Origin: Marmoricola sp.
GTDB taxonomy: Bacteria > Actinomycetota > Actinomycetes > Propionibacteriales > Nocardioidaceae
Assembly: GCA_025964795.1 (NCBI GenBank)
Contig: JAOPYC010000094.1
Location: forward strand, 1-33,501
DNA length: 33,501 nt
Direction of reading: 5' to 3'
Shown here: positions 3 to 15,232 of the stretch, piece by piece
Numbering within the stretch: the stretch's first letter is position 1
Layout of the letters: every line of letters starts with the position of its first letter
Made by a program: the position numbers and the translations under genes
The notes under the pieces: model-generated
The model's database searches: none
Seen by the model: the letters and a program-made list of their open reading frames with translations, nothing else
What the model was told of the DNA's origin: nothing

Positions 3-377
3 TGGACCGAGGTGCTGCAGTCGCGTCGTGAGAACGCCGCCGACCGGGCCGCCGCCGCCTCCGCCTACCGCAGCCTCTACGGCCTCCGCACCGCGGAGCA
101 CGCCGGCTTCGCCACCGCGATGACCGAGCGGCTGGCCGAGGCCCACCTCGCCCAGCGAGAGCTCGAGGGCCTGGTCACCCAGCACGAGTCGCGCGCCCAG
201 CGGGCCGAGTCCCGGCTCGCCGACGCGGAGGTCCGCGTGCACACCCTCGAGGAGGCCGTGGCGTCCCTGCAGGGCGAGGGCGCCGTCGGCGACCTCGTCG
301 CGTGGGAGGAGCAGGCCGGCCAGAAGGCCGCGCAGAAGAAGGCCGCCGCCCGCCGGCAGGGGCTCAAGCGGGCCTAG
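3..377 (+). CDS. C-terminal end of an unidentified coiled-coil-containing protein (5' end outside window)
   Basis: The reading frame is open from the first complete codon (position 3) to a TAG at 375-377, so the gene probably begins upstream; a GTG at position 12 is the first start-like codon inside the window, but no ribosome binding site is visible. The readable part is about 124 residues, rich in Ala, Glu, Arg and Leu, with a long heptad-like stretch in the middle that predicts an alpha-helical coiled coil, and a Lys/Ala/Arg-rich end (QKKAAARRQGLKRA). I do not recognise the family; such tails occur on many actinobacterial enzymes and structural proteins. Its stop overlaps the stop of the convergent lyase gene in the shared tetranucleotide CTAG at 374-377. 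Function unknown. Confidence 0.6.
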   Translation, partial: WTEVLQSRRENAADRAAAASAYRSLYGLRTAEHAGFATAMTERLAEAHLAQRELEGLVTQHESRAQRAESRLADAEVRVHTLEEAVASLQGEGAVGDLVAWEEQAGQKAAQKKAAARRQGLKRA

Positions 378-1849
378 CCGCCCCGCTGCACCGGCTGCAC
401 GTGGGCCGGCAGCCCGTCGACGAGCTCCTCGGCCAGGATCAGGTCGTAGGTCAGGTCGCGGTCGTGCATGTCCGGGATCCCGCCGTCGCGCTCGTCGAGA
501 TAGGCCAGTGCGCTCACCAGCGTGGGCGGGTGCGCCCGCTGCATGCGCAGGCACCGCAGCGAGGCCACCAGCTCCGCGGCGAGCACCGCGCGGAACCGGG
601 ACACCGACTCCAGCGCCTGGCGGGCGGCCAGGGTGGCGAAGGAGGCGTCCTCCTCGACCCCGCGGGACAGCGTGACCGCCTGGATCCCGGCCGGGGTGGC
701 CAGGGCGCGCAGCTCGGCCAGGGCCGAGGCGGCGCTGTACTCCACGATCATCACCCCAGAAGCCGCCGGCGTGCCGTCGCCGAGGAACGGGTGCAGCCCG
801 GTGTACGCCGGCTCGGCCAGCATCGTCAGCCGGGCCAGGGACAGCTGCGCCGACTGGGCCACGGCCAGCACGAGTGAGTCCAGCGACTGCACGAGGTAGG
901 CGGCGTGGAAGGCGCCGTGGTGGGCGACGCCGAGCTCCGGGGACACGATCGGGTTCTCCGAGGGGCTGTTGGCCATCTTCACGATGACCTCCTCGGCGAA
1001 GGCCAGCCGGTCCATCAGCGCGCCGTGCACCTGCGGGAACGTGCGCAGGCTGAACGGGTCCTGGATCCGGGCCGGCTCGCCGGCCGGGCCGATCAGCTCC
1101 CGCATCGTGCGGCAGACCCAGCGCGACCCGGGGAACGGCGTGGCCACCTCCACCGCGGGGCTGAACGCCTCGGGGTTGCCGCGCACGGCGGCGAAGTCCA
1201 TCGCCGCGATGACGACGGTGGCCCGGGCGAGCCGGCCGAGGTCCCACACGGCCAGGGCCGCGTCCGCGAGGACGGCGGCGTTGCTCGACATGAACGTGAG
1301 CGCGTCCCCGGGCCCGAACTCGGTGGTCGCGGTGACGGGGGGAGTGCTCGGCACCTCGCCGGACAGCACCCGGGCGGTGGTGGCCAGCGCCGCGAGGTCG
1401 GCCGTCCCCACGCTCCCGCCCTCGCGCACCGGAGGCAGCGAGTCCGCGCCGAGCATGGCCGCGAGGGCGTCGAGGACCAGGGGGCTGATCCCGTTGCCGT
1501 CGGTGGCCAGCTGGTTGAGCCGGATCACGAGCATGGCCCGGACCCGGGCCGCGGAGCGCAGCTCCCCGGAGCTGGTCGCGTGCGAGCGCAGCAGCTGCAG
1601 CGCCTGGGAGTCGGGGTCGGGCTGGACGAGGTCCTTGTTGGCGCCGACGCCGGTGGAGCGGCCGTAGATCGGGCGGTTCTCGGCCACCGTGTTCGCGAAC
1701 TCGTGGGAGCGGGCCACGCGTTCCCGGGCCATGGCATCGACCTCGACCGGCCCGCCGGCGCGACGCGAGACCGCGACGATCTCGTCCAGCGAGAGGCGAG
1801 TCCCGTCAAGTGTGGGCAATCCGGACTCCTCTGACAACTTTGTGGCCAC
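374..1849 (-). CDS. MIO-less aromatic amino acid lyase homologue (candidate ergothionase or histidine-betaine lyase)
   Basis: A 491-residue protein of the histidine/phenylalanine ammonia-lyase fold. Seen: YGRSTGVG at 62-69 (equivalent of HAL YGINTGFG with the catalytic Tyr), LLRSH ending at His90 (HAL His83 position), QDPFSLR at 263-269, SENPIV at 297-302 and an acidic VEEDAS at 398-403 where HAL has QEDHVS. The MIO-forming site is broken: HAL reads GSVGASGDLAPL, this protein reads GSVGTADLAAL (145-155), so Ala-Ser-Gly is absent, and the MIO-contacting Asn of the LLNGT segment is Ser. Known: ergothionase, which splits ergothioneine into thiolurocanate and trimethylamine, is a MIO-less member of this superfamily. 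Inferred: this enzyme eliminates an already good leaving group (trimethylamine) from an imidazole or aromatic betaine. The start is a GTG with a weak GGGTGAG upstream. It is divergent from a regulator and quaternary-amine transporter operon. It could instead be a different MIO-independent lyase or an inactive homologue. Confidence 0.85.
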   Translation of the reverse strand: MATKLSEESGLPTLDGTRLSLDEIVAVSRRAGGPVEVDAMARERVARSHEFANTVAENRPIYGRSTGVGANKDLVQPDPDSQALQLLRSHATSSGELRSAARVRAMLVIRLNQLATDGNGISPLVLDALAAMLGADSLPPVREGGSVGTADLAALATTARVLSGEVPSTPPVTATTEFGPGDALTFMSSNAAVLADAALAVWDLGRLARATVVIAAMDFAAVRGNPEAFSPAVEVATPFPGSRWVCRTMRELIGPAGEPARIQDPFSLRTFPQVHGALMDRLAFAEEVIVKMANSPSENPIVSPELGVAHHGAFHAAYLVQSLDSLVLAVAQSAQLSLARLTMLAEPAYTGLHPFLGDGTPAASGVMIVEYSAASALAELRALATPAGIQAVTLSRGVEEDASFATLAARQALESVSRFRAVLAAELVASLRCLRMQRAHPPTLVSALAYLDERDGGIPDMHDRDLTYDLILAEELVDGLPAHVQPVQRGG

Positions 1850-1965: not shown

Positions 1966-2712
1966 ATGACCTCCCAGGTTGCCTCCGGTCCCCGGAAGGC
2001 CCTCGTGCCCTCCGGTGTGGAGCCCGGCGTTCCCGCAGGACGCGTCAGCTCCACGCGCGCGGTCGAACGGGCCCTGGCGCTGCTGTCGGAGGTGTGCAGC
2101 CGCGAGGACGTGACCCTCACTGAGTGCGCCCGGCAGACCGGGCTCCCGCCCAGCACGGCCCTGCGGCTGCTGCGGACCCTCGAGACCGCCGGCTTCGTCA
2201 GCCGCGACGACGCGGGGAGCTTCCGTGCCGGCTCACGGATGATCCAGCTCGGCGCGACGGCCATCGGTCGCAACGAGCTGGCCCGGCTGGCCCAGCCCGC
2301 GCTGGACCGCATCGGTACGGCGACCCGGGAGTCGGCGTACCTCTCGATCCGCGGCGTCGGTGACACGGCCGTCTACATCGCCCAGGTGGAGGGCACCCAC
2401 GCCGTGCGGCACCGCGGCTGGATCGGCCGTGCCGTGCCCCTGGAGGGACTGGCCGTCGGCCTGGTGCTTCGCGGTGAGATCCCCGAGGAGGGGTACGTGG
2501 CGGGTCGTGACCGCCTGGAGCCGGACGTGACCGCCATCGTCGCGCCCGTGCGCTACCCGGGCGGCATCGTCGCCGCGCTCAGCGTGCTGGGACCGACCTA
2601 CCGCATCGACAAGGCCACCATGCACCACTACGGCCGCATCGTGGCCACCGAGGCCGCAGACCTCAGCGCTCAGCTCGGCTCGCCGCCCGACCACCAGGAG
2701 ACCTCACGATGA
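1966..2712 (+). CDS. IclR-family transcriptional regulator
   Basis: A 248-residue protein with the IclR layout: a winged helix at about residues 29-95 (SSTRAVERALALLSEV, then TGLPPSTALRLLRTLETAGF as the recognition helix) and an IclR effector-binding domain at about 110-240 (VAPVRYPGGIVAALSVLGP is typical of its end). The effector domain is somewhat short. The ATG has an excellent AGGAGG at 1956-1961. It is the first gene of the transporter operon, overlapping the ATPase by ATGA at 2709-2712, and is divergent from the lyase across a 116-nt gap, so it probably controls both directions and senses the imported compound or its breakdown product (inference). I saw no convincing palindromic IclR operator in the gap. 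Confidence 0.92.
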   Translation: MTSQVASGPRKALVPSGVEPGVPAGRVSSTRAVERALALLSEVCSREDVTLTECARQTGLPPSTALRLLRTLETAGFVSRDDAGSFRAGSRMIQLGATAIGRNELARLAQPALDRIGTATRESAYLSIRGVGDTAVYIAQVEGTHAVRHRGWIGRAVPLEGLAVGLVLRGEIPEEGYVAGRDRLEPDVTAIVAPVRYPGGIVAALSVLGPTYRIDKATMHHYGRIVATEAADLSAQLGSPPDHQETSR

Positions 2713-3809
2713 TCCGCTTCGACCAGGCCACCAAGCGCTACCCCGACGGCACGGTGGCCGTCGACGAGCTCGACCTGGAAGCGCCGTCGGGCAAGATCAC
2801 GGTGCTGGTGGGGCCGTCGGGCTGTGGCAAGACGACCTCGCTGCGGATGATCAACCGGATGATCGAGCCGACCTCGGGCACCATCTGGCTCGACGACACC
2901 GACACCGCGAGCATGCCGGCGCACGAGCTGCGCCGCCAGATCGGCTACGTCATCCAGCACGCCGGGCTGTTCCCGCACCGCACCATCGTCGACAACATCG
3001 CCACCGTCCCGTTCCTGATCGGCACCGACAAGAGGCAGGCGCGGGCGCGGGCGATGGAGCTGCTAGAGCGCGTCGGCCTCGACCCCGCCTTCGCCAAGCG
3101 CTACCCCGGGCAGCTCTCCGGCGGCCAGCAGCAGCGCGTCGGGGTGGCTCGGGCCCTGGCCGCCGACCCGCCCGTGATGCTGATGGACGAGCCGTTCTCG
3201 GCCGTCGACCCGGTGGTCCGCGACCAGCTCCAGGACGAGTTCCTGCGGCTGCAGGACGAGCTCGGCAAGACCATCGTGTTCGTCACCCACGACATCGACG
3301 AGGCGATCAAGCTCGGTGACCAGGTGGCGGTGCTGCGGGTCGGTGGCAGGCTCGCCCAGCTCGCGCCCCCGGCCGAGCTGCTCTCGCGTCCGGTGGACGC
3401 GTTCGTCGCCGGCTTCGTCGGGCGCGACCGCGGCTACCGCGCGCTCGGCTTCACCAGCGCCGGCACCATCGTGACCCGCGACGAGCCCACGGTGACGATG
3501 GGGGAGTCGCTGCCCGGCAGCGACGGCTCCTGGCTGCTCGCGGTGGACCCCTCGGGGGCGCCACAGGGGTGGCTCCACCTCGCCGACGAGCCGCACGGCG
3601 GGGTCGTCGAGGACCGGATGCTCTACCGCGGCGGCACGTTGGCGACCCAGGGCGGCACGTTGCGCGGCGCGCTCGACGCCTGCCTCTCCTCCCCGTCGGG
3701 CCGGGGCATCGTCGTCGACGACTCCGGCCGGCTGATCGGCTCGACGACCGCCCGCGAGGTTCTCGCCCTCATCGAGGGCCTGCCCGACGCCGCCGAGGTG
3801 GGCGCGTGA
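2709..3809 (+). CDS. Quaternary-amine (OpuC/ProV-type) ABC transporter ATPase
   Basis: A 366-residue cytoplasmic ATPase. Walker A GPSGCGKT at 35-42, Q-loop Gln83 in YVIQHAGLFPH, signature LSGGQQQ at 136-142, Walker B VMLMDE at 156-161, and the H-loop His194 in FVTHD are all intact. The IRRMIEP-like segment after Walker A (MINRMIEPTSG) and the C-terminal extension after residue 230, which resembles degenerate CBS repeats, place it in the osmoprotectant/quaternary-amine subgroup, where the CBS part senses ionic strength or ligands. Starts in an ATGA overlap with the IclR gene and ends overlapping the GTG start of the first permease, so translation is probably coupled. The substrate cannot be read from this subunit; the neighbouring lyase suggests an aromatic betaine such as ergothioneine (inference). 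Confidence 0.95.
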   Translation: MIRFDQATKRYPDGTVAVDELDLEAPSGKITVLVGPSGCGKTTSLRMINRMIEPTSGTIWLDDTDTASMPAHELRRQIGYVIQHAGLFPHRTIVDNIATVPFLIGTDKRQARARAMELLERVGLDPAFAKRYPGQLSGGQQQRVGVARALAADPPVMLMDEPFSAVDPVVRDQLQDEFLRLQDELGKTIVFVTHDIDEAIKLGDQVAVLRVGGRLAQLAPPAELLSRPVDAFVAGFVGRDRGYRALGFTSAGTIVTRDEPTVTMGESLPGSDGSWLLAVDPSGAPQGWLHLADEPHGGVVEDRMLYRGGTLATQGGTLRGALDACLSSPSGRGIVVDDSGRLIGSTTAREVLALIEGLPDAAEVGA

Positions 3810-4501
3810 TCCCGCTCGACGCCGCGAGCTCCTCGCCCTGGCACTTCTGGGGCTACTTCCTCGACCACCGGTCGCAGGACCTCGGCTACCTGTGGGACCA
3901 CACCTGGCTCTCGGTGGTCCCGGTCGTCGTCGGGCTGCTGCTGGCCCTGCCGCTCGGCTGGCTGTCCCGGCGCTACAACTGGGTCTACCCGCCGATGATG
4001 TCGATCACCGGGCTGCTCTACACGATCCCGTCCATCGCGCTGTTCGTGCTGATCCCGCCCCTGCTCGGCCTCGACCCGCTCAGCCCGCTCCAGGTGCCGA
4101 TCGCGCTCAGCGTCTACTCCGTCGCGCTGCTGGTCCGCGTGGTCGCCGACGGGCTCGGTGCCGTGTCGCCCGAGACGCTGCAGGCGGCGACCGCCATCGG
4201 CTTCAAGCCGCTGGGCCGCTTCTTCCGCGTCGAGCTGCCGATCGCGGTCCCGGTGATCACCGCCGGCCTCCGGGTGGCGATCGTGGCCAACGTCAGCATC
4301 GTCACGGTGGCCGGCACGATCGGGTTCGACAACCTCGGCCGGCTCTTCGACGAGGGTTTCAAGCTCTCCACCGACACCCCCTACTACCCGCCGATCATCC
4401 TGGGCATCATCCTGTGCGTCCTGCTGGCCCTGGTGCTCGACGGCCTGGTGCTCCTGGTGAACCGGTTGCTCACCCCGTGGAGAAGGGCGGTCCCGACATG
4501 A
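3806..4501 (+). CDS. Quaternary-amine ABC transporter permease (OpuCB-like), first copy
   Basis: A 231-residue integral membrane protein with about five or six hydrophobic segments. The start is a GTG at 3806 that overlaps the ATPase stop (GTGA); the frame stays open further upstream but that part is the shadow of the ATPase gene. The permease coupling loop is visible as QAATAIGFKPLGRFFRVELPI-type sequence, with the typical EAA-like motif contacting the ATPase, followed by hydrophobic helices. An extra loop LSTDTPYYPP before the last helix is typical of OpuCB/OpuCD pairs. It overlaps the next permease by ATGA at 4498-4501. Works with the second permease as a heterodimeric channel. Confidence 0.93.
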   Translation: MIPLDAASSSPWHFWGYFLDHRSQDLGYLWDHTWLSVVPVVVGLLLALPLGWLSRRYNWVYPPMMSITGLLYTIPSIALFVLIPPLLGLDPLSPLQVPIALSVYSVALLVRVVADGLGAVSPETLQAATAIGFKPLGRFFRVELPIAVPVITAGLRVAIVANVSIVTVAGTIGFDNLGRLFDEGFKLSTDTPYYPPIILGIILCVLLALVLDGLVLLVNRLLTPWRRAVPT

Positions 4502-5280
4502 TCGGCGACGTCTTCAGCTGGCTCTCCGACCCCACCCACTGGCAGAGCACCAACTTCGACACCGGCATCTGGGGCCAGCTCGGCGCCCACCTGCGCTACT
4601 CCGCGATCGCCCTGGTCATCGCCCTGGTGATCGCGCTCCCGCTCGGCCTGTGGATCGGGCACACCAACAAGGCCACGTGGATCGTCAGCGCCGCCAACGC
4701 CATCCGGGCCCTGCCCAGCGTCGGCCTGCTGGTGCTGCTCGTGGTGATCATCGCGCCGCACTTCTACGGCCGCACCGACACCGGCTACGTCATCCCGACC
4801 GAGATCGTGCTCGTGCTCCTCGCGATCCCCTCGATCCTGTCCAACACGGTGGCCGGGGTGCAGAACGTCGACCGGGCGGTGCGCGACGCGGCGTACGGCA
4901 TGGGGATGACGGGGCCACAGGTGCTGTTCCGGGTGGAGACGCCCAACGCGCTGCCGCTGATCTTCTCGGGGTTCCGCTCGGCCACCCTTCAGGTGATCGC
5001 CACGGCCACCATCGCGTCGTACGTCACCCTCGGCGGGCTCGGCCGGTTCATCTACGACGGCCTCGCCCAGCAGGACTACCCGCAGATGATCAGCGGCGGC
5101 CTGCTCGTGGCGGCGCTGGCCCTGATCCTCGACCTGCTGCTCGCCCTGCTCCAGCGCTACACCGTCTCGCGTGGGATCACCGGCCGCACGCGTCGCTCCG
5201 ACCGGGCCGGGCACAGCGACGAGGCCCCCGACCCGCGTAGCGCCGTGCTCACCGAGGACCTGGCCCCCGAGGCCGCCTGA
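4498..5280 (+). CDS. Quaternary-amine ABC transporter permease (OpuCD-like), second copy
   Basis: A 260-residue membrane protein with about six hydrophobic segments. The permease signature region AVRDAAYGMGMTGPQVLFRV with the following ETPNALPLIFSGFRSA is the EAA-type coupling helix of OpuCB/OpuCD proteins. A long hydrophobic ALVIALVIALPLGLWIG helix near residue 40-56 and the conserved IRALPSVGLLVLLV stretch support the family. The ATG is within the ATGA overlap with the first permease. The C-terminal 40 residues after the last helix (GRTRRSDRAG onwards) are hydrophilic and probably cytoplasmic. It is paired with the upstream permease and the downstream lipoprotein. Confidence 0.93.
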   Translation: MIGDVFSWLSDPTHWQSTNFDTGIWGQLGAHLRYSAIALVIALVIALPLGLWIGHTNKATWIVSAANAIRALPSVGLLVLLVVIIAPHFYGRTDTGYVIPTEIVLVLLAIPSILSNTVAGVQNVDRAVRDAAYGMGMTGPQVLFRVETPNALPLIFSGFRSATLQVIATATIASYVTLGGLGRFIYDGLAQQDYPQMISGGLLVAALALILDLLLALLQRYTVSRGITGRTRRSDRAGHSDEAPDPRSAVLTEDLAPEAA

Positions 5281-5347: not shown

Positions 5348-6292
5348 ATGAGAACCAAGCTCGTCGCCCTCGCCGCCGCTGCGACCGCCCTCACGATGGG
5401 CCTCAGCGGCTGCGGATCCGACTCGTCGTCCAACTCCGGCTCGTCCTCGAAGGGCGGCACCATCTCGTCGCAGATGATCTTCGGCGGTCCGCCGGAGTTC
5501 AAGACCCGCACGGACGGGATCCCGGGGCTGGAGAAGAACTACGGCGTCACCTTCGGCAAGTACACCGTCACCGACACCGGCGGCCCCGTCACGGTCAACG
5601 CCCTCAAGCGCGGCCAGGTGGACGCGGTCGACCTGTTCACCACCGACCCGGCGATCAAGGCCAACGACTTCGTCATCCTCGAGGACCCCAAGGCCAACTT
5701 CGCCGCCCAGAACATCGTCCCGATCGTGAGCAAGGACAAGGCCACTGCCGGGGTCAAGACCGTGCTCAACGGGATCCAGGCGAAGCTGACCGACGACGGT
5801 CTCGGCACGCTGATCGGCCAGGTCCAGAACGACAAGAAGGACCCCGCCGACGTGGCCAAGGGCTGGCTGACCGAGAACGGGCTGGACACCACGGGCACCG
5901 GTGCCAAGGGCGTCACGCTGACGGTCGGCTCGGCGAACTTCCCGGAGAACGTGATCCTGGCGGAGATCTACGCCGGGGCGCTCACCGCGCAGGGCGCTAC
6001 GGTCAAGACCAAGCTGAACATCGGCAGCCGCGAGAAGTACTACCCGGCCCTGAAGGCCGGCTCGCTCGACCTGTTCCCGGAGTACACCGGCACGATCCTG
6101 CAGTACATCGACAAGACCGCCACGGCGACCAGTTCCGACGACGTCTACGCCGCCCTGGGCAAGGCGCTGCCGGCCAACCTGGTCGCGCTCGACCAGGCCG
6201 AGGCGCAGGACAGCGATGCGGTCGTGGTCACCAAGGAGACCGCCGACAAGTACAAGCTCAAGACGATCGCGGACCTGGCCAAGAAGAACTGA
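5348..6292 (+). CDS. Circularly permuted OpuAC-type substrate-binding lipoprotein
   Basis: A 314-residue lipoprotein. Start ATG at 5348 with AGGAGA just upstream; the signal peptide ends in the lipobox LSGC (residues 19-22, lipidated Cys22), followed by a Ser/Gly linker. The order of the two halves is the reverse of normal OpuC-type proteins. Residues about 39-180 (IFGGPPEFKTRTDGIPGL, LFTTDPAIKANDF, KDPADVAKGWLTENGL) match the usual C-terminal half, and residues about 188-314 (LTVGSANFPENVILAEIYAG, LDLFPEYTGT, LKTIADLAKKN) match the usual N-terminal half that normally follows the signal peptide. The end of the second half flows naturally into the start of the first, as a circular permutation should. 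It delivers a quaternary amine to the permeases; with the adjacent lyase, an aromatic betaine is plausible (inference). The family assignment is firm, the substrate is not. Confidence 0.92.
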   Translation: MRTKLVALAAAATALTMGLSGCGSDSSSNSGSSSKGGTISSQMIFGGPPEFKTRTDGIPGLEKNYGVTFGKYTVTDTGGPVTVNALKRGQVDAVDLFTTDPAIKANDFVILEDPKANFAAQNIVPIVSKDKATAGVKTVLNGIQAKLTDDGLGTLIGQVQNDKKDPADVAKGWLTENGLDTTGTGAKGVTLTVGSANFPENVILAEIYAGALTAQGATVKTKLNIGSREKYYPALKAGSLDLFPEYTGTILQYIDKTATATSSDDVYAALGKALPANLVALDQAEAQDSDAVVVTKETADKYKLKTIADLAKKN

Positions 6293-6314
6293 CGGCCCTC
6301 CTCCACGAGCCTCA

Positions 6315-6352
6315 CCGACGCGCACCAGGCCTCCGGGCCCGGTGCGCGTCGG
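6315..6352 (+). terminator. Strong hairpin terminator of the transporter operon
   Basis: Perfect 12-bp inverted repeat CCGACGCGCACC (6315-6326) and GGTGCGCGTCGG (6341-6352). Inside, GGCC-TCCG-GGCC can form a further 4-bp stem capped by a UNCG-type tetraloop. It starts 22 nt after the lipoprotein stop. There is no T-tract, which is common for actinobacterial terminators. Confidence 0.75.
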
Positions 6353-6365
6353 CGTTGGATCCGCC

Positions 6366-6512
6366 ATGCTCAGCGAGGTGCTGAACCGCCAGGTCAACGC
6401 GACGATGCGGCCCCGGTTCCACCTCACCGCGCTCAACGCCGAGGTCGACGGCGGGTTCGCACCGGCGCGCCAGTCGGCCGAGGACTACCTGAGGAAGAAG
6501 GACCTGCTCTGA
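6366..6512 (+). pseudogene. Relic of the C-terminal tail of an OpuAC-type binding protein
   Basis: An open stretch of 48 residues (starting MLSEVLNRQVNATM, then LTALNAEVDGGFAPARQSAE and DYLRKKDLL, with a TGA at 6510-6512) reads like the extreme C-terminus of a normal-order OpuC-type binding protein. In B. subtilis OpuCC the tail has the same pattern: an Asn-Lys helix, then MQELNYEVDG, then an acidic helix ending near the stop. It has no domain upstream, no signal peptide and no ribosome binding site, and is in a different frame from the lipoprotein gene, so it is a remnant. It may be the leftover of the duplicated copy that gave rise to the permuted lipoprotein. Confidence 0.6.
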
Positions 6513-6522
6513 GCGGACTCCC

Positions 6523-6648
6523 GGTCAGCGGCGAGAACAGCTGCTGGCGCAGGACCTCGACGTGGCCGGGGAGCACCTGGGCGATGACCGAGCGGCCGGC
6601 TTTCGTGACGGTGACGCTTCGCTCGTCCTGCACGTGTGGCCGGCCGTA
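6523..6648 (-). pseudogene. Relic of the C-terminal part of a MarR-family regulator
   Basis: Read on the minus strand, the segment RPHVQDERSVTVTKAGRSV followed by a LPGHVEVLRQQLFSPLT stretch matches the end of MarR proteins: the tip of the wing (D-x-R), the second wing strand (V-x-V-T-x-A-G) and the start of the dimerisation helix. A stop codon interrupts the frame just upstream at 6649-6651 and the HTH is missing, while the downstream end runs into the neighbouring relic. No complete gene is possible here. Confidence 0.5.
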
Positions 6649-6670
6649 TCATGAGGCCGGAGGTGCCCGA

Positions 6671-6823
6671 ATGATCGCGTGGCTTCAAAGGCTCAGGGTC
6701 AAGCGCGCGGGCCGGCGATACTTGGCGCGTCGTCAGCGCGGGGTGCTCGACGACCAGCATTACGCCGACGAGCTCCAGGCTGCGCGGGACGGGTTGAGCC
6801 CCCGCCCCTACACCGGAGCCTGA
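6671..6823 (+). CDS. Short basic protein with a SHOCT-like motif, hypothetical
   Basis: A 50-residue ORF starting at an ATG with GGAGG seven nt upstream (6659-6663) and a TANNNT box TATCAT at 6647-6652. The frame is open further upstream, but the ribosome binding site favours this ATG. The N-terminus is a basic helix (MIAWLQRLRVKRAGRRYLAR); the second half, ARRQRGVLDDQHYADEL, has the L-x-x-G-x-L-x-D-x-x-Y/F pattern of SHOCT-type short C-terminal motifs. It sits between gene relics, so it may itself be a fragment. Function unknown. Confidence 0.4.
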   Translation: MIAWLQRLRVKRAGRRYLARRQRGVLDDQHYADELQAARDGLSPRPYTGA

Positions 6824-7214
6824 CTTCGGCAGACCCGCGGTCCCCCACATCGGATCGCGCCTCCGTTCTGTGCGATCTCGAGCCCGTCGAGCGTGCCCCA
6901 TCTGCCGCGGCCTGCGCTCTACTGCCCCACGCCGCCGTCACCACCGATGCCGCCCCATGATCGACCGGGCTGACCTTGGTCCTGCTGGCCCGCGCTCCAG
7001 GGTCGGTCGCCTCCACGAGCCTTGGCCCGGTCCTTGTGCCATTGACGGTTGAGGTCGGCTGAGGAGGGCGTGGCGGACGCGGCGGGGGGCGTGGCTCGGG
7101 GAGCGGCAGAGGACCGGTGGCCGAGGCGGGCCAGCACGGCGGCGAGAATGTTCATCAGACCAGTGTGCGGCGGCCGGGGACGTTGGGGAAGGGAGAGGGC
7201 AGAGGCGGGAGAAA
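6824..7214. other. Non-coding or decayed stretch
   Basis: About 390 nt with no gene I can support. A minus-strand frame at 6919-7155 (78 residues, MNILAAVLARLGHRS at its start, SSADLNRQWHKDRAKARGG in the middle) has a reasonable N-terminus but no ribosome binding site or -10 box, and its Gly/Gln-rich end looks non-coding. The stretch joins the relics at 6366-6648 as decayed DNA between two clusters. Confidence 0.5.
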
Positions 7215-7240
7215 CGGGGCGTCAGGGCAACGCCGCCCCG
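7215..7240 (-). terminator. Hairpin terminator of rmlA
   Basis: Directly downstream of the rmlA stop on the minus strand, CGGGGCG pairs with CGCCCCG around a 12-nt loop that can partly pair itself, followed by a short TTTC run (GAAA at 7211-7214 on the plus strand). Confidence 0.6.
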
Positions 7241-7244
7241 AGGC

Positions 7245-8108
7245 CTACTCGGCCAGCAACCCGAGCAGGTAGGTGCCGTAGCCGCTCTTGAGCAGCGGCT
7301 CGGCGCGCTCCCGGAGCTCGTCGTCGCTGAGGAAGCCCATCCGCCAGGCCACCTCCTCGGGTGCGCCGATCTTGAGTCCCTCGCGGTTCTCGATCGTGCT
7401 CACGTAGTTGCCGGCCTCGAGCAGCGACTCGAAGGTGCCGGTGTCGAGCCAGGCCGTGCCGCGGGGCAGCACCTGCACCTGCAGGCGTCCCTGCTCCAGG
7501 TAGATGCGGTTGATGTCGGTGATCTCCAGCTCCCCGCGCGGGGACGGCTTTAGCGCCTTGGCCATGGCCACGACGTCGTTGCTGTAGAAGTACAGCCCGG
7601 GGACGGCGTACTTGCTGCGCGGGTTCGCGGGCTTCTCCTCCAGGCTGATGGCGCGGCCCTCGGCGTCGAACTCCACCACGCCGTACGCCGTCGGGTCGGC
7701 CACGCGGTAGCCGAAGACGGCCCCGCCGTCGATGTCGTTGAACCGGCGCAGCTGGGTGCCCAGGCCACCGCCGTGGAAGATGTTGTCGCCCAGGACCAGG
7801 GCGACCGAGTCGTCCCCCACGTGCTCCTCGCCGAGGATGAAGGCCTGGGCGAGGCCGTCAGGGCTCGGCTGCTGCACGTGGGTGATGCTGATGCCGAACT
7901 GGGAGCCGTCGCCGAGCAGCCGCTGGAAGCCAGGAGCGTCGTGGGGGGTGGTGATCACCAGGATGTCGCGGATCCCCGCCAGCATCAGCGTCGAGAGCGG
8001 GTAGTAGATCATCGGCTTGTCGTAGACCGGCAGCAGCTGCTTGCTGGGTCCGAGGGTGATCGGGTGCAGACGAGAACCGGCGCCGCCGGCCAGGATGATT
8101 CCGCGCAT
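7245..8108 (-). CDS. rmlA: Glucose-1-phosphate thymidylyltransferase RmlA
   Basis: A 287-residue nucleotidyltransferase that joins dTTP and glucose-1-phosphate to dTDP-glucose, the first step to dTDP-rhamnose and other dTDP sugars. Seen: the N-terminal nucleotide-binding loop [45 protein letters not shown] with the metal-binding Asp, [28 protein letters not shown] and [16 protein letters not shown], all diagnostic for RmlA; the length is normal. The ATG lies 6 nt after a TAGTTT -10 box, so the mRNA is probably leaderless. rmlB, rmlC and rmlD are not in the window. It borders a surface-polymer cluster and probably feeds it. Confidence 0.97.
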
Positions 8109-8114
8109 GCTGAC

Positions 8115-8120
8115 AAACTA
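8115..8120 (-). promoter_or_regulatory. -10 box for leaderless rmlA
   Basis: On the minus strand TAGTTT (TANNNT) followed by 6 nt (GTCAGC) and the rmlA ATG; no Shine-Dalgarno sequence. This spacing puts transcription start at or next to the start codon. Confidence 0.55.
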
Positions 8121-8168
8121 GTGGGACAGCTGCCGTGTTCGCTGCGCCGGAGCCGGTGAGCGGCCCGA

Positions 8169-8174
8169 TAAACT
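8169..8174 (+). promoter_or_regulatory. -10 box for the GT2-like gene at 8183
   Basis: TAAACT (TANNNT) 8 nt before the ATG at 8183, no Shine-Dalgarno sequence. With the rmlA box it forms a divergent pair of near-leaderless promoters in a 74-nt gap. Confidence 0.45.
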
Positions 8175-8182
8175 CCCGCACC

Positions 8183-9619
8183 ATGGCAACGCCCCCAGAG
8201 CAGAGCAGTCAGCGCGCCCAGATCTCCGTCCTGGTCATCGTCGAGGACGCGGACGGGCTCGTCGAGACCGTCCGGTCCCTCGACCTGCAGACTCTCCCGC
8301 GCTCCCAGTACGACGTGCACGTCCTGCTGGCGACCACCGACACCCACCTGGCCGATCGGCTGCGGTCGCTGGAGAAGCGGCGCCCCAACGTGGTGTTCGT
8401 CGACGCTTCGGCGGGTCTCGGAGCAGCGGTCTCGTCGACGCTCGACGGTCTCGACGACGTGCTCGTGCTCCCGCTGGCGGCGGGCACCTTGCTCCACGCG
8501 GAGGCGCTCGAACGCCTCGCCGGCGCGGCCACCGGGGGAGCCGTCGCGGGCCGTCGCTCCGGTGACGGCGCGGTGCTGCCGGCGTCGACCGCGCGGCCGT
8601 TGACCACCCCACTGACGTTCCTCGCGGCCCCCCTGCCCGAGGCCCGGGCGGCCGCAGGCGCGGCGACGTCCGCACCCGTCCCGGAGTGGCTGTCGACCTG
8701 GCAGCAGGCGGTGCTCGCGCAGGAGCAGCCGGTCACGGAGCTCCTCGACTACCCCGCGGTCCGCGGTCAGGAGGTCGTCACGCTCGGCCAGGCCGACGTG
8801 CGGGAGCCCGAGCTGAGCTGGCAGGGCACCCGGCTCCACCTGCGCGTCGGTGTCGCCGCGCACGGGCTGGGCACACCGACCGACGCGACGTTCTTCCTCC
8901 ACCACGTGGGCCTCGGGCTGGAGTACCTCGTCGACGCCCAGGTGACCCTCGAGGGGTCGGAGCTTCTGCTCACCGGCTCGTTCGACCCGAGCGACGCCGC
9001 CCTGGGCAGCGAGCTGCCTGGCGGCGAGTGGCTGGTGGCCTTCGAGGTCGCGTCCGGAGCCGACGTGCTCCGGGCCCTGGTCCCGAACTCCCGGATCACC
9101 CCCGCGATCATCAACGGTCGTCCGGTCATGCGCACGATCCAGCGCGACGAGCTGGGCCTCCAGGTCGACCGGGCCCGGCGGAGCCTGGTGGACGCGGACC
9201 CCGACTCGGCCGAGATCACCGAGTCGGTCGCCGGCACCCGGATGGTCCTGCCCCTGCGCAACCTCTACCTCGGCGGAACCCCCGTCGTCACCGGGACCAT
9301 CGTGCTGGGTCGGTTGCCGGTCCGCGCCGACATCAGGGACACCCCGGACGGGCCGGTGCTGGAGGCCTGGCTCTCCGGCCTGGTCGGGAGCTATCCGATC
9401 GGCGTCAAGTTCGGCGGCGCACCCGTGCGCTCGACCGGACTGGTCCTCGAGGTCGACGGGATCGGCGGCATGCGCGTGGCCAAGGCCAAGACCAAGCCCG
9501 CCGGCCCCAACGCGGGTCCGGGCGCCGACCCGACGCCGGCCACGATCGTGGACCGGCTGCGCGCTGCGGTGCCCGACCCCGTCGCGAAGGCGCTGGGTCG
9601 CCGCGGAGGACGCTCCTAG
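8183..9619 (+). CDS. Degenerate GT2-like protein with C-terminal beta-rich domain, cell-surface cluster
   Basis: A 478-residue protein. The frame is open to 8135, but the ATG at 8183 fits a -10 box 8 nt upstream. Residues about 12-130 follow the course of a GT-A (GT2) domain: ISVLVIVEDADGLVETVRSL in place of the usual SVVIPVYN start, then a Rossmann-like alternation, then VLPLAAGTLLHAEALERL exactly where active enzymes have FLDSDD-x-L-x-P-x-ALE. The DxD metal site is therefore missing and catalysis is unlikely. Residues about 210-420 are rich in beta strands (LHLRVGVAAHG, LLLTGSFDPSD, MVLPLRNLYLGGTPVVTG), similar in character to the accessory domains of teichoic acid glycosyltransferases. It ends tail-to-tail with the methyltransferase in CTAG. 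Probably a structural or binding partner in glycopolymer synthesis (inference). Confidence 0.7.
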   Translation: MATPPEQSSQRAQISVLVIVEDADGLVETVRSLDLQTLPRSQYDVHVLLATTDTHLADRLRSLEKRRPNVVFVDASAGLGAAVSSTLDGLDDVLVLPLAAGTLLHAEALERLAGAATGGAVAGRRSGDGAVLPASTARPLTTPLTFLAAPLPEARAAAGAATSAPVPEWLSTWQQAVLAQEQPVTELLDYPAVRGQEVVTLGQADVREPELSWQGTRLHLRVGVAAHGLGTPTDATFFLHHVGLGLEYLVDAQVTLEGSELLLTGSFDPSDAALGSELPGGEWLVAFEVASGADVLRALVPNSRITPAIINGRPVMRTIQRDELGLQVDRARRSLVDADPDSAEITESVAGTRMVLPLRNLYLGGTPVVTGTIVLGRLPVRADIRDTPDGPVLEAWLSGLVGSYPIGVKFGGAPVRSTGLVLEVDGIGGMRVAKAKTKPAGPNAGPGADPTPATIVDRLRAAVPDPVAKALGRRGGRS

Positions 9620-10365
9620 CCGACCGGGGCGAAGTCCGAGCCCAGCTTCTCGCGGAGCGTCGTGGCCAGGTTGCCGCGCATCGCGGCGACGTCCTCGCGC
9701 TGGTCGCGCAGGATCTCCAGGAACCCGGACTCCAGCACCATCTCGGGCTGCAGCACCGTGAGGCGGTCCATCAGGTCCTCCGGCACCGGCTGCGGGTCGG
9801 GACGCCGGAACTGCGCCACGATCTCGTCGTAGTGGTCGGCGAGCGTGGTGTCCTCGGGGTCCAGCCCGGTGACCAGGAGCAGCCCGGTCGGCCAGGTGTC
9901 GACGGGCAGCACCGACAGCCCGGGGCGGTACTTCGCGAGCACCTCGAGGATCGGGTAGACGTCACCGGTCCACAGGTTGGTGGCGCGGGCGCGGGCCGCC
10001 TCCTTGACCGAGCGGGGGAGCACGTCGTCGAAGATGATTAGGCCGTTCGGGCTGCTGTTGCGCTCGGTGTTGATGAAGTCGCGCAGCGCGAACTCGAACA
10101 GGTGCAGCCCGTCGATGAACGCCATGTCGAAGGGCCGGCCCTGCGTCGGCTCCAGCGGGTTGTCCCGGCTGAAGTACTCGTCGCTCGTCGTCCGGAACAG
10201 CGCGATGTCGCCGTCGATCGGGACCACGAGGGCGAAGCCCGGGTCGATGCCGACGGTCCGGCAGCGGGAGAGGCGCAGGCACTTGCCCTCGGCCACGCCG
10301 ATCTCGAGGTAGGCCTGCGGCTGGAGCTGCTCGTGCACGCTGGTGAAGAAGTCGAGGTAGTACAT
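9616..10365 (-). CDS. Class I SAM-dependent methyltransferase (Methyltransf_24-like)
   Basis: A 249-residue protein. Motif I YLEIGVAEGKCLRLSR (about 19-34) lacks the full GxGxG but has the acidic start and glycine of the family; VGIDPGF follows as the end of strand beta2, and DMAFIDGLHLFEFALRDF (about 93-110) with GLIIFDDVLP are the hallmark of the Methyltransf_24 group, in which the Asp-His region binds a metal. The last 70 residues are helical and probably a separate tail. It lies 9 nt downstream of the large polymerase on the same strand, so it is co-transcribed and likely methylates a sugar or the end of the polymer (inference). Its TAG stop shares CTAG with the convergent neighbour. Confidence 0.85.
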   Translation of the reverse strand: MYYLDFFTSVHEQLQPQAYLEIGVAEGKCLRLSRCRTVGIDPGFALVVPIDGDIALFRTTSDEYFSRDNPLEPTQGRPFDMAFIDGLHLFEFALRDFINTERNSSPNGLIIFDDVLPRSVKEAARARATNLWTGDVYPILEVLAKYRPGLSVLPVDTWPTGLLLVTGLDPEDTTLADHYDEIVAQFRRPDPQPVPEDLMDRLTVLQPEMVLESGFLEILRDQREDVAAMRGNLATTLREKLGSDFAPVG

Positions 10366-10374
10366 GGATAGACC

Positions 10375-13300
10375 CTAGGCGCTGGAGGGACCGAAGACCC
10401 GGTCGACCACGCGGCCGGCGGCCTCTCCGTCGTCCCAGGGGGCGTAGCGCTCGCGGAAGTCCGCGCGCGCCCGGGCGTAGCCGTCGTCGACGCCGTCGGA
10501 CCGGGCCAGGTGCTTCACCAGCTCCTCCTGGTCGGTGAACAGCGGTCCCGGAGCGTCCCGCTCGAAGTCGAGGTAGAAGCCGCGGACCCGGTCGCGGTAG
10601 TCCGCCAGGTCAGGCACCAGGAACATGATCGGCCGGTCGAGGGTGACGTAGTCGAACATCACCGAGGAGTAGTCGGTGACCAGGGCGTCGCTGGCCAGGA
10701 AGAGGTCGTTGATGTCGGGGTAGAGGGTCACGTCGATGACCCCGGAGGACCCGTCGCCGCCGACCGAGTCCCCGGCGGAGGTGTTCGCGTGGCCGCGCAC
10801 CAGGACGACCGTGCCCGGCAGGGCCGTGACGACCTCGACCGGGTCGAGGTAGAGCACCTTGGAGTGGGCGCCGCCCGACCGGGCCGTGTCCCGCCAGGTG
10901 GGGGCGTAGAGCAGCACCCGCTGGTCGTCGCGGATGCCGAGCCGCCGGCGTACGTCGCGGCCCGCCTCCAGGTGGCCGGGCCGGACGAGCGCGTCGTTGC
11001 GCGGGTAGCCGGTCTCCAGCACCGGTCCGTGGTAGCCAAAGGCGCGCGGCAGGATCTCCGAGCAGTAGGGGCTGGGGGAGACCAGGTGGTCCCAGACCGA
11101 GGCCTCGTAGACCATCGTCTGCTGGTAGGTGATCGACAGGAAGCGCTTGTCCTCGATGTCGTTGGCGATCTTCTTCAGCGGGGTGCCGTGCCAGGTCTGC
11201 AGGTAGACCTGCCCGGGGGCCTTGCGGAAGAAGTAGGGGAAGTTGGCGTTGTTCACGACGTACGCCGCCCGGGCGAGCAGCGCGTACCACTCCTCGCTGA
11301 GCCGGACCACGGCCCGGGTGCCCTCCGGGACCCTGACCGAGCCGTCGGCGACGCTCCAGACGAGGTCCAGCTCGCTGCCGCGGCGGACGAGCTCACGGGC
11401 GATGGCCGCCGGGGAGTCACCGGCGCTGGTGCCGGTGAAGGTCTCGAACAGGACGCAGGGCAGGAGCGGCTCCCCGATCGAGGCCTCGTAGACCTCGGTC
11501 CGCAACCAGCGCTGCCGGCGCTGGGGGGCGTCGGCCTCGGGCAGGGCGGTGGTCCTGACCACGAGGGTGGACAGGTGGGTCATCCCGACGTCCAGGTTCT
11601 GGTCGGCGTGCTCCACCACCAGGGGCAGCCGCGCGCGCAGGGAGCCGTCCGCGAACACGTAGCCGTCGTCGTCCGGCACGTCCTCGCCGCCCGGGGGAGC
11701 CAGCAGGGCGAGGTCGTAGGAGCCGAGCGGCAGCGGCCCCGGACCGAGGTTCCAGGGGTCCTGGACGAGCGGCACCTCGACCTCGAAGTCGCCCGCGGGC
11801 AGCGGCTCCGAGGCCAGCCCGTTGGTCCGGGTTCCGAGCAGGAGCAGCCGGTGCCCCTCGGCGGCGAACGCAGTCCCCCGGACGACGAGGCTGCGCTCGC
11901 CCGGGGCGACACCCGAGACGGCCACGGCCGGCTTCGGCTCGTCGACCAGGACGGACTGCGAGCCGCCGCGGTGCACGAAACCGCCGGCGGACGCCTCGCC
12001 CAGCACGCCGGGCTCCTCGCCCCAGAGGGCGTGCAGGCGGCGACCCGATGCGTGCCGCGTGACGAGCCTCCGGGACGGGCCCGGGGTGACCACGACGCGC
12101 ACGGTGCCTGGTTCGTCGCTGCTGACCGTGAGCTCCGGGTCGACGGACCGCAGGTCGCCGAGCGTCGCGGAGACGACCGGGTCGGACACCGAGGTCCGCA
12201 GGGTCAGCTCGAGCGTCGTGTCGTGCAGCATCCGGTGCCCGGCGGTCCAGGCGTAGGTGTCGTGGACCTGGACGCGGTGGCCGGTGTCGACCACGCCCGC
12301 CAGGCGCACCAGCCGGCCGCCGCACTCGTGGGGCTCACGGCTCCCCCCGGAGCCCAGGTTGAACACGTGGGTGATGTCGCTGACCCGCTCGAACCCCGCC
12401 TGGGTCTGGGTGAACTGCAGGCGCAGCCCGGTCTGTCCGGCGGGTGCGACCCGGGCCAGCCACTCGGCGTCGAGCCGCGCCTCGAACCCGGTCTCGCTCA
12501 TGTCGGCGAAGGCCAACCGGGCCAGGTGGTCCAGACCCGGGTCGGCGTAGCGGGTGAGCGGGACTGCGAGGTGCTGGCCGTCGTCGGCGACCAGGTTCAG
12601 CTCCAGGACGTGGGTCCCCATGCTGGTGGGCAGCGGGGTCAGGTACGCCGACCCGCGGAGCACCAGGGTGTGGTCCTCCCACCGCGTCTCCACCAGGCGT
12701 ACGACGGGTCGCACGTCCACGGCGTACACCTGACGCAGCCAGTGGGGGAGGTCCGCCTCGCTCACCTCGAACGGCGGGACGTACTCCAGGTGGTCGCCCT
12801 CGGCCCGGGTCGGCAGACCGGCGGGATGCTGCTCGAACCAGGCACGCATCTGGACGGCCAGGTCCAGGTGGCCGTGGCTGAGCAACCAGGACTTCACCCG
12901 GTTGCGGAAGGCGACCCGGTGCCAGACGGTCTCGGGGACCTCGTCGCGCAGCCGCTCGAGGCGGTCCTGCAGCATCGCGAGGTAGGCCTCGTCGGCGTTG
13001 AGCGCGGCGATCAGGTAGTTCGGCAGGTCGTAGTCGAGCAGCTTGAGGTACCAGCTCTCGCGGACGACCTGCGGCGCCTTGCGCATCAGCTCGGCGCACT
13101 GCTCCTGGCTGCGCAGGCGGTCCGTGAGGTCGAGGATCGAGGCCTTCTGCTGGGTGATCGAGCTGCCGTCGAGCCGGGTGCGCCAGACGTAGACCTTCTG
13201 GCGCAGGACGTCGATGGAGCGGGCGGTGAGGTAGGCCCGGGTGATCGGCACCTGGTCCTCGTAGCGAACCCCCTCCATGAACCGGAACTCGTGCCTGCTC

Positions 13301-13917
13301 CAGAACGAGCGCCGGAAGACCTTGTTCCACGCCGTGATGTCGAGCAGCAGGTCGGGCTCGTCCTTCAGTGAGATGCCGGACCGGTTGCGGCCCATCGTGC
13401 GGTTGACCCAGTGCGGCTTGATGGCCGTAGCCGCGTCGCCGCGGGCGAAGGCGCCGGTGATGAAGTCCGAGCCGCTGTGCCGCAGCTGGTTGACCATGTC
13501 GCGGTAGGCGTCGGGCATCACCAGGTCGTCGGAGTCGAAGAAGGCGATGAACTCGCCGGTGGCGTACTCCGCGCCGGTGTTGCGGGCCGCGCCCAGCCCG
13601 GCGTTCTCCTTGGTGACGATCCGGATGCGGTCGTCCTCGGCGGCGTACTCACGGACGATGTCGGCCGAGCCGTCGGTGGAGCCGTCGTCGACCACGATGA
13701 ACTCGATGTCCTCGAGGCTCTGGGTCAGCACGCTGTCCAGGGCGGGCCGGATCCACTCGCGGACGTTGTAGACGGGGATCACCAGGCTCAGCGCCGGCCC
13801 GTCGTGCGGGCGCCGGTTGGCCACCTTGCGTCCGACCCGGCGGGCGTAGTCCGGTGCGCGCCTGATGCGTCGCGCCACCGCCCGAGCCTTGCGCAGCGGG
13901 GGTCTGGACGCGGGCAA
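10375..13917 (-). CDS. Large GT2 / CDP-glycerol glycerophosphotransferase fusion (teichoic-acid type polymerase)
   Basis: About 1180 residues. The frame is open back to 15258, but that is the shadow of the opposite-strand genes; I choose a TTG at 13917 with GAGGAGG 5 nt upstream and a TATCAT -10 box further up (13953-13958). Order: a basic N-terminus (1-40); a GT2 domain (about 43-270) with SLVIPVYNVREWI, VVDDGSTDGS, ENAGLGAARNTG and FFDSDD (127-131); a helical part; beta-rich linker domains (about 400-780); and a TagF-like CDP-glycerol glycerophosphotransferase domain (about 795-1180) with YLQTWHGTPLKKIAND, YAPTWRD, LVRGHAN, DINDLFLASDALVTDYSSV and the final RFGP-type tail. The His-containing WHGTPLK and DYSS motifs are the catalytic and CDP-binding signatures. 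It would polymerise glycerol-phosphate or ribitol-phosphate units and add a sugar at the membrane face. Confidence 0.9.
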   Translation of the reverse strand: MPASRPPLRKARAVARRIRRAPDYARRVGRKVANRRPHDGPALSLVIPVYNVREWIRPALDSVLTQSLEDIEFIVVDDGSTDGSADIVREYAAEDDRIRIVTKENAGLGAARNTGAEYATGEFIAFFDSDDLVMPDAYRDMVNQLRHSGSDFITGAFARGDAATAIKPHWVNRTMGRNRSGISLKDEPDLLLDITAWNKVFRRSFWSRHEFRFMEGVRYEDQVPITRAYLTARSIDVLRQKVYVWRTRLDGSSITQQKASILDLTDRLRSQEQCAELMRKAPQVVRESWYLKLLDYDLPNYLIAALNADEAYLAMLQDRLERLRDEVPETVWHRVAFRNRVKSWLLSHGHLDLAVQMRAWFEQHPAGLPTRAEGDHLEYVPPFEVSEADLPHWLRQVYAVDVRPVVRLVETRWEDHTLVLRGSAYLTPLPTSMGTHVLELNLVADDGQHLAVPLTRYADPGLDHLARLAFADMSETGFEARLDAEWLARVAPAGQTGLRLQFTQTQAGFERVSDITHVFNLGSGGSREPHECGGRLVRLAGVVDTGHRVQVHDTYAWTAGHRMLHDTTLELTLRTSVSDPVVSATLGDLRSVDPELTVSSDEPGTVRVVVTPGPSRRLVTRHASGRRLHALWGEEPGVLGEASAGGFVHRGGSQSVLVDEPKPAVAVSGVAPGERSLVVRGTAFAAEGHRLLLLGTRTNGLASEPLPAGDFEVEVPLVQDPWNLGPGPLPLGSYDLALLAPPGGEDVPDDDGYVFADGSLRARLPLVVEHADQNLDVGMTHLSTLVVRTTALPEADAPQRRQRWLRTEVYEASIGEPLLPCVLFETFTGTSAGDSPAAIARELVRRGSELDLVWSVADGSVRVPEGTRAVVRLSEEWYALLARAAYVVNNANFPYFFRKAPGQVYLQTWHGTPLKKIANDIEDKRFLSITYQQTMVYEASVWDHLVSPSPYCSEILPRAFGYHGPVLETGYPRNDALVRPGHLEAGRDVRRRLGIRDDQRVLLYAPTWRDTARSGGAHSKVLYLDPVEVVTALPGTVVLVRGHANTSAGDSVGGDGSSGVIDVTLYPDINDLFLASDALVTDYSSVMFDYVTLDRPIMFLVPDLADYRDRVRGFYLDFERDAPGPLFTDQEELVKHLARSDGVDDGYARARADFRERYAPWDDGEAAGRVVDRVFGPSSA

Positions 13918-14046
13918 TCCGGCCTCCTCGTGGACGTTTCCGTGAACACCGGATGATAGCCGTCCGGTGGCAGCCGCCCCGGCACCGTCAGGGTGAGTCC
14001 ACACGGTTCGACCGTCGTGTCCGATGGGTGGAAGGGACCGCCCCTC

Positions 14047-14052
14047 TAGGCT
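14047..14052 (+). promoter_or_regulatory. -10 box for leaderless GT2 gene at 14059
   Basis: TAGGCT followed by 6 nt and the ATG; no Shine-Dalgarno sequence. Confidence 0.55.
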
Positions 14053-14058
14053 CTGCGC

Positions 14059-15156: not shown

Positions 15157-15162
15157 CGCCCG
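15143..15162 (+). terminator. Weak hairpin overlapping the GT2 stop codon
   Basis: CGGGCG (15143-15148) and CGCCCG (15157-15162) flank the stop codon of the GT2 gene. The 6-bp stem has no T-tract; possible weak terminator before the acyltransferase promoter. Confidence 0.3.
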
Positions 15163-15192
15163 TGGCGCCACGGATCGACCCGTCGTGACAGG

Positions 15193-15198
15193 TAGTCT
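15193..15198 (+). promoter_or_regulatory. -10 box for the acyltransferase
   Basis: TAGTCT with GTGACA close upstream but too near for a -35; transcription would start about 15205, leaving a short leader with GGAGGA at 15218-15223 before the GTG at 15233. Confidence 0.4.
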
Positions 15199-15232
15199 GA
15201 CCCGGCTCTCGGAACCCGGAGGATGGAACGAA

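Follow-up and report, generated by a model that had tools for sequence, protein, structure and literature searches.

The window, a stretch of 33,501 nucleotides of Marmoricola sp. DNA, was found to carry the gene of a lyase (374–1849, minus strand) that belongs to a real and conserved family of MIO-free enzymes with the fold of histidine ammonia-lyase (HAL), related to ergothionase but distinct from it. Ordinary HAL-type lyases need MIO for ammonia to leave, and trimethylamine is a better leaving group. As far as its sequence can be interpreted, the enzyme is probably a trimethylamine lyase for a histidine-derived betaine, and there is about an even chance that its main substrate is hercynine. 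The explanation that on balance accounts best for the locus is that of a MIO-independent HAL-fold lyase working with a betaine importer, the reaction most likely being the conversion of hercynine to urocanate and trimethylamine. The gene and its diagnostic residues are located as follows, the best 80 loci being those examined among at least 564 confirmed relatives.

374–1849, minus strand: MIO-less HAL-fold lyase, 491 residues, GTG start; a single Pfam domain, PF00221, at 326.6 bits.
1394–1417, minus strand: shortened former MIO motif GSVGTADL, residues 145–152, from codons and alignment; Treponema ergothionase has SSIGEGDI at the equivalent site.
1664–1666, minus strand: Y62, aligned with Tyr53 of both P. 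putida HAL and Treponema denticola ergothionase; Tyr in 80/80 of the best loci.
1580–1582, minus strand: H90, aligned with His83 of the same two enzymes; His in 80/80 of the best loci.
737–742, minus strand: E370-Y371, a family-specific pair by alignment (Q-K383 in T. denticola ergothionase, mostly Q-Y or Q-V in MIO lyases); Glu and Tyr in 79/79 and Lys in 0/79 covering loci among the best 80.
653–655, minus strand: E399, aligned with Glu414 of HAL and Glu411 of T. denticola ergothionase; Glu in 79/79 covering loci among the best 80.

The HAL architecture that the preliminary description had attributed to this protein was borne out by the PF00221 match, the only Pfam name that it earned (aromatic amino acid lyase). 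Its best NCBIfam matches were histidine ammonia-lyase models, all below their cut-offs, including the HutH equivalog TIGR01225 (256.7 bits, cut-off 539.15). The codons GGG AGC GTG GGG ACG GCC GAC CTC at 1417–1394 of the minus strand read GSVGTADL, as had been described, against GSVGASGDL in P. putida HAL. One residue is missing, only Thr149-Ala150 is left of the HAL triad Ala142-Ser143-Gly144 (GSVGT-ADL), and the Ala/Cys/Ser/Thr-Ser-Gly triad that forms MIO is absent. The MIO-contacting Asn is likewise gone, the column of HAL Asn195 being occupied by Ser188, though N190 stands two residues further on. The catalytic Tyr and His90 were correctly said to be kept, and Tyr53, His83, Arg283 and Glu414 of P. 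putida HAL correspond to Y62, H90, R269 and E399. QDPFSLR had also been listed as a kept motif, which does not hold, because the HAL Tyr280 column contains Phe266. HutH of P. putida and T. acidophilum shares with the lyase the fold and the equivalents of these four residues, but differs in having the ASG triad, Asn195 and Tyr280; furthermore, the profile of the lyase family is some 13 residues shorter than HutH in the segment that follows the motif. Since the cofactor is missing, histidine ammonia-lyase activity is unlikely for this protein. The genome has a second PF00221 gene on another contig; this is a canonical hutH whose triad is CSG, and hutU comes after it.

The same loss was found among relatives. 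A genome-collection scan with the family alignment confirmed at least 564 stretches as relatives, and the MIO-free family seems to be common in actinomycetes, to which all of the best 80 loci belong by record title. The motif was GT[GA]D in 80/80 of these best loci (of at least 564), a set partly selected for the motif because it was chosen with two short patterns, one over the MIO motif and one around Tyr62. Tyr62, His90, Gly148, Thr149, Asp151, Ser189 and Arg269 were invariant in the best 80, as were Glu370, Tyr371, Arg396 and Glu399 in the 79 loci extending over the C-terminal sites, and the HAL Tyr280 column held Phe in 33, Tyr in 44 and Leu in 3. A similarity search of the 293 genomes of the window's order (E ≤ 1e-50) gave a match to the lyase in 53, a number that includes at least one canonical hutH (G023; G048 and G150 are of similar score). 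Loci were obtained for 30 of the 53 genomes, and the triad was absent in 29/29 when the window's own locus was excluded. Triad loss is thus common to relatives in many actinomycetes, and therefore reflects neither chance, an error nor a decayed copy. The window lyase is 87% identical to a protein of Marmoricola sp. URHB0036; the loci L036 and L121, both with the motif GTGD, were counted with the actinomycete clade.

An unrooted tree of 65 hand-chosen rows (IQ-TREE, LG+C20+F+G4), which omitted the Rhizobium plasmid locus L124 and many near-copies, placed the 38 actinomycete rows in one group (100/100) and 17 MIO lyases in another (94/84). Ergothionase grouped with rows from Sinorhizobium, Paracoccus and S. 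meliloti (100/96), and the window lyase was found in the actinomycete clade, separate from that of Treponema ergothionase. When the motif and Asn columns were removed, the actinomycete group and the four-row ergothionase group formed one side of a 99/96 branch, with the other 23 rows on the opposite side. A phylogeny had been proposed as a check on kinship with ergothionase, and in this unrooted tree the lyase does group with ergothionase, apart from the MIO lyases. The grouping is compatible with a single loss of MIO, short of proof because the tree is unrooted. Six rows with other triad losses (GSVGY--L, GS---D) were placed on the HAL side, and their loss of MIO may have been a separate event.

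That ergothionase lacks MIO is stated in PMC13405746. The T. denticola enzyme (PDB 6s7j, 6s7q) resembles the lyase in its HAL fold, in its lack of the MIO triad and in a motif shorter by one residue, IG[ET]-[GA]D. Both proteins have S-[SC]-N-A in place of HAL N-G-T (SCNA in ergothionase, SSNA in the lyase) and the pattern GVGxN[KR] (GVGWNKD and GVGANKD, respectively), and Tyr53, His83, Glu411 and an Arg of ergothionase align with Y62, H90, E399 and an Arg of the lyase. The main exception among the diagnostic sites is Lys383, which is Tyr371 in the lyase, after the invariant Glu370; Tyr occupies this position in every covering locus among the best 80 (79/79), and L157, a row of the ergothionase clade, also lacks the Lys and has Ala there. 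The residues essential in ergothionase reportedly include, from work by Maurer in 2019, Glu411 and a Lys (Lys384), the latter probably being Lys383 in the chain numbering. The two proteins share 22% identity over the structural alignment and fall in separate clades. The lyase was nearer HAL than ergothionase both in a plain search (7tqr, 132.8 bits; 6s7j, 94.7 bits) and with the family profile (272.9 and 214.6, respectively), whereas the motif region alone put the two level (73.8 and 73.3). As regards the structure-based alignment with HAL and Treponema ergothionase that had been recommended, the diagnostic sites match ergothionase with Lys383 as the main exception, and the structural match to ergothionase is tied with those to tyrosine aminomutase and HAL.

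On the other side of the lyase start, a divergent set of genes encodes a regulator and an ABC importer.

1850–1965, no strand: intergenic region separating the divergent genes of the lyase and the IclR regulator, bounded by the gene coordinates; probable shared control region.
1966–2712, plus strand: IclR-type regulator (HTH_IclR, IclR_C), matched in 14/80 of the best loci.
2709–3809, plus strand: ProV/OpuCA-type ABC transporter ATPase (ABC_tran; best NCBIfam match TIGR01186 proV, 296.2 bits, below the cut-off of 326.6), matched in 57/80 of the best loci.
3569–4501, plus strand: ABC permease A, extent of the open reading frame, true start probably near 3806 (BPD_transp_1 at residues 126–300).
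3892–5280, plus strand: ABC permease B, extent of the open reading frame, domain in the second half (BPD_transp_1 at residues 249–422).
5348–6292, plus strand: OpuAC-type lipoprotein binding protein (OpuAC), circularly permuted; start assigned by visual reading of the lipoprotein signal MRTK...LSGC.

Compared with solved homologues, including EgtUC, and with relatives, the binding protein has its C-terminal half ahead of its N-terminal half. Its best solved matches include the ergothioneine-binding EgtUC and nicotine and acetylcholine sensor proteins. The importer resembles EgtUC and ProX/OpuC-type betaine importers in its OpuAC-type binding protein and in its subunit make-up, but differs in that the binding protein is circularly permuted and a separate lipoprotein, whereas that of EgtU is fused to the permease. 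The permuted order is common to the binding proteins of the window and of loci L034, L035, L036, L038, L044, L046 and L052, and the usual order was observed in the other relatives compared, such as L048, L050 and L067. The importer is followed by a cell-surface sugar region (7245–15258) with RmlA, glucose-1-phosphate thymidylyltransferase (7245–8108), and a large glycosyltransferase/CDP-glycerol glycerophosphotransferase protein (10375–15258).

Gene neighbours were counted within at most 8 kb to either side in the best 80 loci (of at least 564) with hand-set bit-score thresholds for the probes, and 20 hand-chosen canonical hutH loci, in all of which the HutH probe matched (20/20), served as control. 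The ATPase was matched in 57/80 loci, and 52/80 had it together with a binding protein and one or more permeases, compared with 0/20 controls in both cases; the complete importer was absent from 28/80, in some through contig ends. The ergothioneine genes EgtD, EgtC, EgtB and EgtA were matched in 13, 12, 11 and 7 of the 80, respectively. Further matches were to a LacI regulator (28/80), a cysteine-dioxygenase-like protein (25/80) and an amidohydrolase-like protein (21/80), and each of these genes, like the four egt genes, had 0/20 in the controls. The name amidohydrolase-like comes from a reading of the sequence only, and the copies that were scanned gave no match to any model of Pfam or NCBIfam. 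HutU was found in 26/80 loci (54/80 without it) compared with 11/20 controls, and a canonical MIO-type HutH beside the lyase in 7/80. A single strand of an Arthrobacter plasmid carries in succession the genes of IclR, the ATPase, two permeases, the binding protein, HutU and the lyase. Among the genomes of the order, the amidohydrolase-like gene was present in 46/53 with a lyase match and 15/240 without (Fisher test, uncorrected for kinship; tallied by hand), a count slightly mixed because the 53 include at least one canonical hutH; with one large genus excluded, the figures were 8/15 and 15/240. In the window's genome, an amidohydrolase-like and cysteine-dioxygenase-like pair is found on another contig (8377–9917 of locus L161). 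No EgtD match was obtained in this genome (92% completeness), and therefore the betaine would be scavenged, not made.

In the mechanism proposed, the neighbouring betaine-type importer would bring in a histidine-derived betaine, whose carboxylate would be held by R269 and whose imidazole by E399 and H90. Y62 would act as the base for the beta-proton, and no electrophilic MIO would be required for the departure of trimethylamine, which is a good leaving group as it stands. The substrate would most likely be hercynine (N,N,N-trimethylhistidine), elimination from which would give urocanate directly, to be degraded to glutamate by the cell's ordinary Hut pathway. Hercynine is favoured because the ergothionase Lys is absent, HutU is canonical and no thiourocanate hydratase was recognised. 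Urocanate hydratase, thiourocanate hydratase and S-methyl thiourocanate hydratase each have their own NCBIfam model, and ten urocanases were scored singly (the window genome's own, a hand-chosen five of the 26 family neighbours, one of two from Haloarcula, and those of Klebsiella, Arthrobacter and Paracoccus). All ten exceeded the HutU cut-off and fell below those for the two thiourocanate enzymes. The urocanase of the window's genome and six that neighbour members of the actinomycete clade (five of 26, plus Arthrobacter) were thus canonical by score. Among the 29 lyase-bearing genomes of 30 hand-chosen loci of the best 80, 28 had one urocanase-family match each and none (0/29) had a thiourocanate hydratase over the cut-off; the latter was found in 0/293 genomes of the order, and both figures are weak evidence because no genome known to carry the enzyme served as a positive control. 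These urocanase results, with the separate clade and the missing Lys, suit hercynine no less than ergothioneine. Nevertheless, the HutU genes near the lyase may be there for histidine, given that HutU occurs in 11/20 controls, is absent from 54/80 loci and is accompanied by HutH in 7/80; the hutU gene of the window's genome adjoins the canonical hutH on a different contig.

Considered in favour of hercynine elimination were the motif likeness to ergothionase, the 99/96 branch, the Glu414 equivalent in 79/79 loci, the importer, the HutU and egt neighbours and the absence of Lys383; against it stood the closer match to HAL over the whole length, the structural tie, the 28/80 loci without a complete importer, and the egt genes, which are equally apt for ergothioneine. 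Ergothioneine is left as the main rival because of the egt linkage and the EgtUC-like importer. The family could be a true ergothionase that converts ergothioneine to thiourocanate and trimethylamine, a separate actinomycete lineage activating the thioimidazole differently, and this is a real but lesser possibility. The shortened motif and S-[SC]-N-A segment common to both, the aligned residues (Tyr, His, Arg, Glu), a binding protein near EgtUC, and the egt and cysteine-dioxygenase-like genes near many relatives would all agree with it, whereas the replacement of Lys383 by Tyr371, the separate clade, the canonical neighbouring urocanases and the lack of thiourocanate hydratase in the lyase genomes and the order (with no positive control) argue against it. 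The earlier proposal of ergothionase activity or one close to it is partly supported, by the HAL fold without MIO, the motif and active-site residues shared with ergothionase, the 99/96 grouping and the importer; ergothionase itself is not supported, in view of the lyase's own clade, the missing Lys383, the canonical urocanases among those scored and the lack of thiourocanate hydratase in the genomes searched.

A trimethylamine lyase for another aromatic betaine (of tryptophan, tyrosine or phenylalanine) was considered very unlikely. MIO-less relatives on proteobacterial plasmids, with importer and beta-oxidation-type genes, hint at cinnamate-like products, but these are of the GSVGY--L type and on the HAL side of the tree (L124 left out), and in the window's clade the equivalent of HAL Glu414 is retained and hut and egt genes are neighbours in part. 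That the protein is catalytically dead or has a non-eliminating role, for example as a regulator or binding protein, is highly improbable: the defining cofactor has been lost, and in the window protein Tyr280 too, but Y62, H90, R269 and E399 are kept in every covering locus of the best 80 and the transporter linkage in 52/80. Returning to hercynine, an actinomycete route can be sketched in which ergothioneine is imported and desulfurised to hercynine, which the MIO-free lyase would convert to urocanate and trimethylamine ahead of HutU; as a whole this route is unlikely. The cysteine-dioxygenase-like protein, often with the amidohydrolase-like protein and LacI regulator, would remove the sulfur, a step suggested only by gene linkage and by amidohydrolase-like co-occurrence, and the route would differ from the one through thiourocanate.

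If the hercynine or ergothioneine assignment is true, the family constitutes a sink for one of these betaines and a source of trimethylamine, and the HAL fold works without MIO once the leaving group is already activated. The corresponding annotation rule would be IG[TE]-[GA]D with S-[SC]-N-A, followed by Lys or Glu-Tyr at ergothionase position 383. In a literature search covering few subscription papers, hercynine lyase was named in no title or abstract opening, which is no proof of novelty, and no paper was found on 'thiourocanate hydratase' or joining MIO, histidine ammonia-lyase and trimethylamine.

Further lyases were observed in several distinct settings. At L114 (Sinorhizobium sp. B11, 5986–7470), a GSIGA-GDL lyase also lacks the active-site His (LIRGRG) and neighbours LLM flavin oxidoreductase genes and an ornithine cyclodeaminase family gene. 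The ergothionase-clade row L157 (S. meliloti pSymA, 7623–9263), annotated hutH, has a DMSP-lyase-like cupin gene and an ABC importer at a distance of 2.7 kb. An archaeal lyase on a Haloarcula sp. GH36 plasmid (L119) shows a third kind of loss, GSA---DNA. Close to it are two hutU genes and genes for an amidohydrolase, a rhodanese-like protein and an importer of the glycine betaine type. The lyase of a Klebsiella quasipneumoniae plasmid (L122, 5953–7485), with the triad lost as GSVGY--L, adjoins an ABC importer, hutU, hutC, hutD and formimidoylglutamate deiminase, and 197 Klebsiella plasmid records had some match to the window protein, whatever the triad type. The GSVGY--L lyases on Agrobacterium, Sodalis and Rhizobium plasmids (L116, L117 and L124, respectively) are accompanied by an ABC importer, 3-hydroxyacyl-CoA dehydrogenase and enoyl-CoA hydratase, and those of L116 and L117 also by a CoA transferase; these neighbours suggest another betaine, the product of which would be degraded as a CoA thioester.
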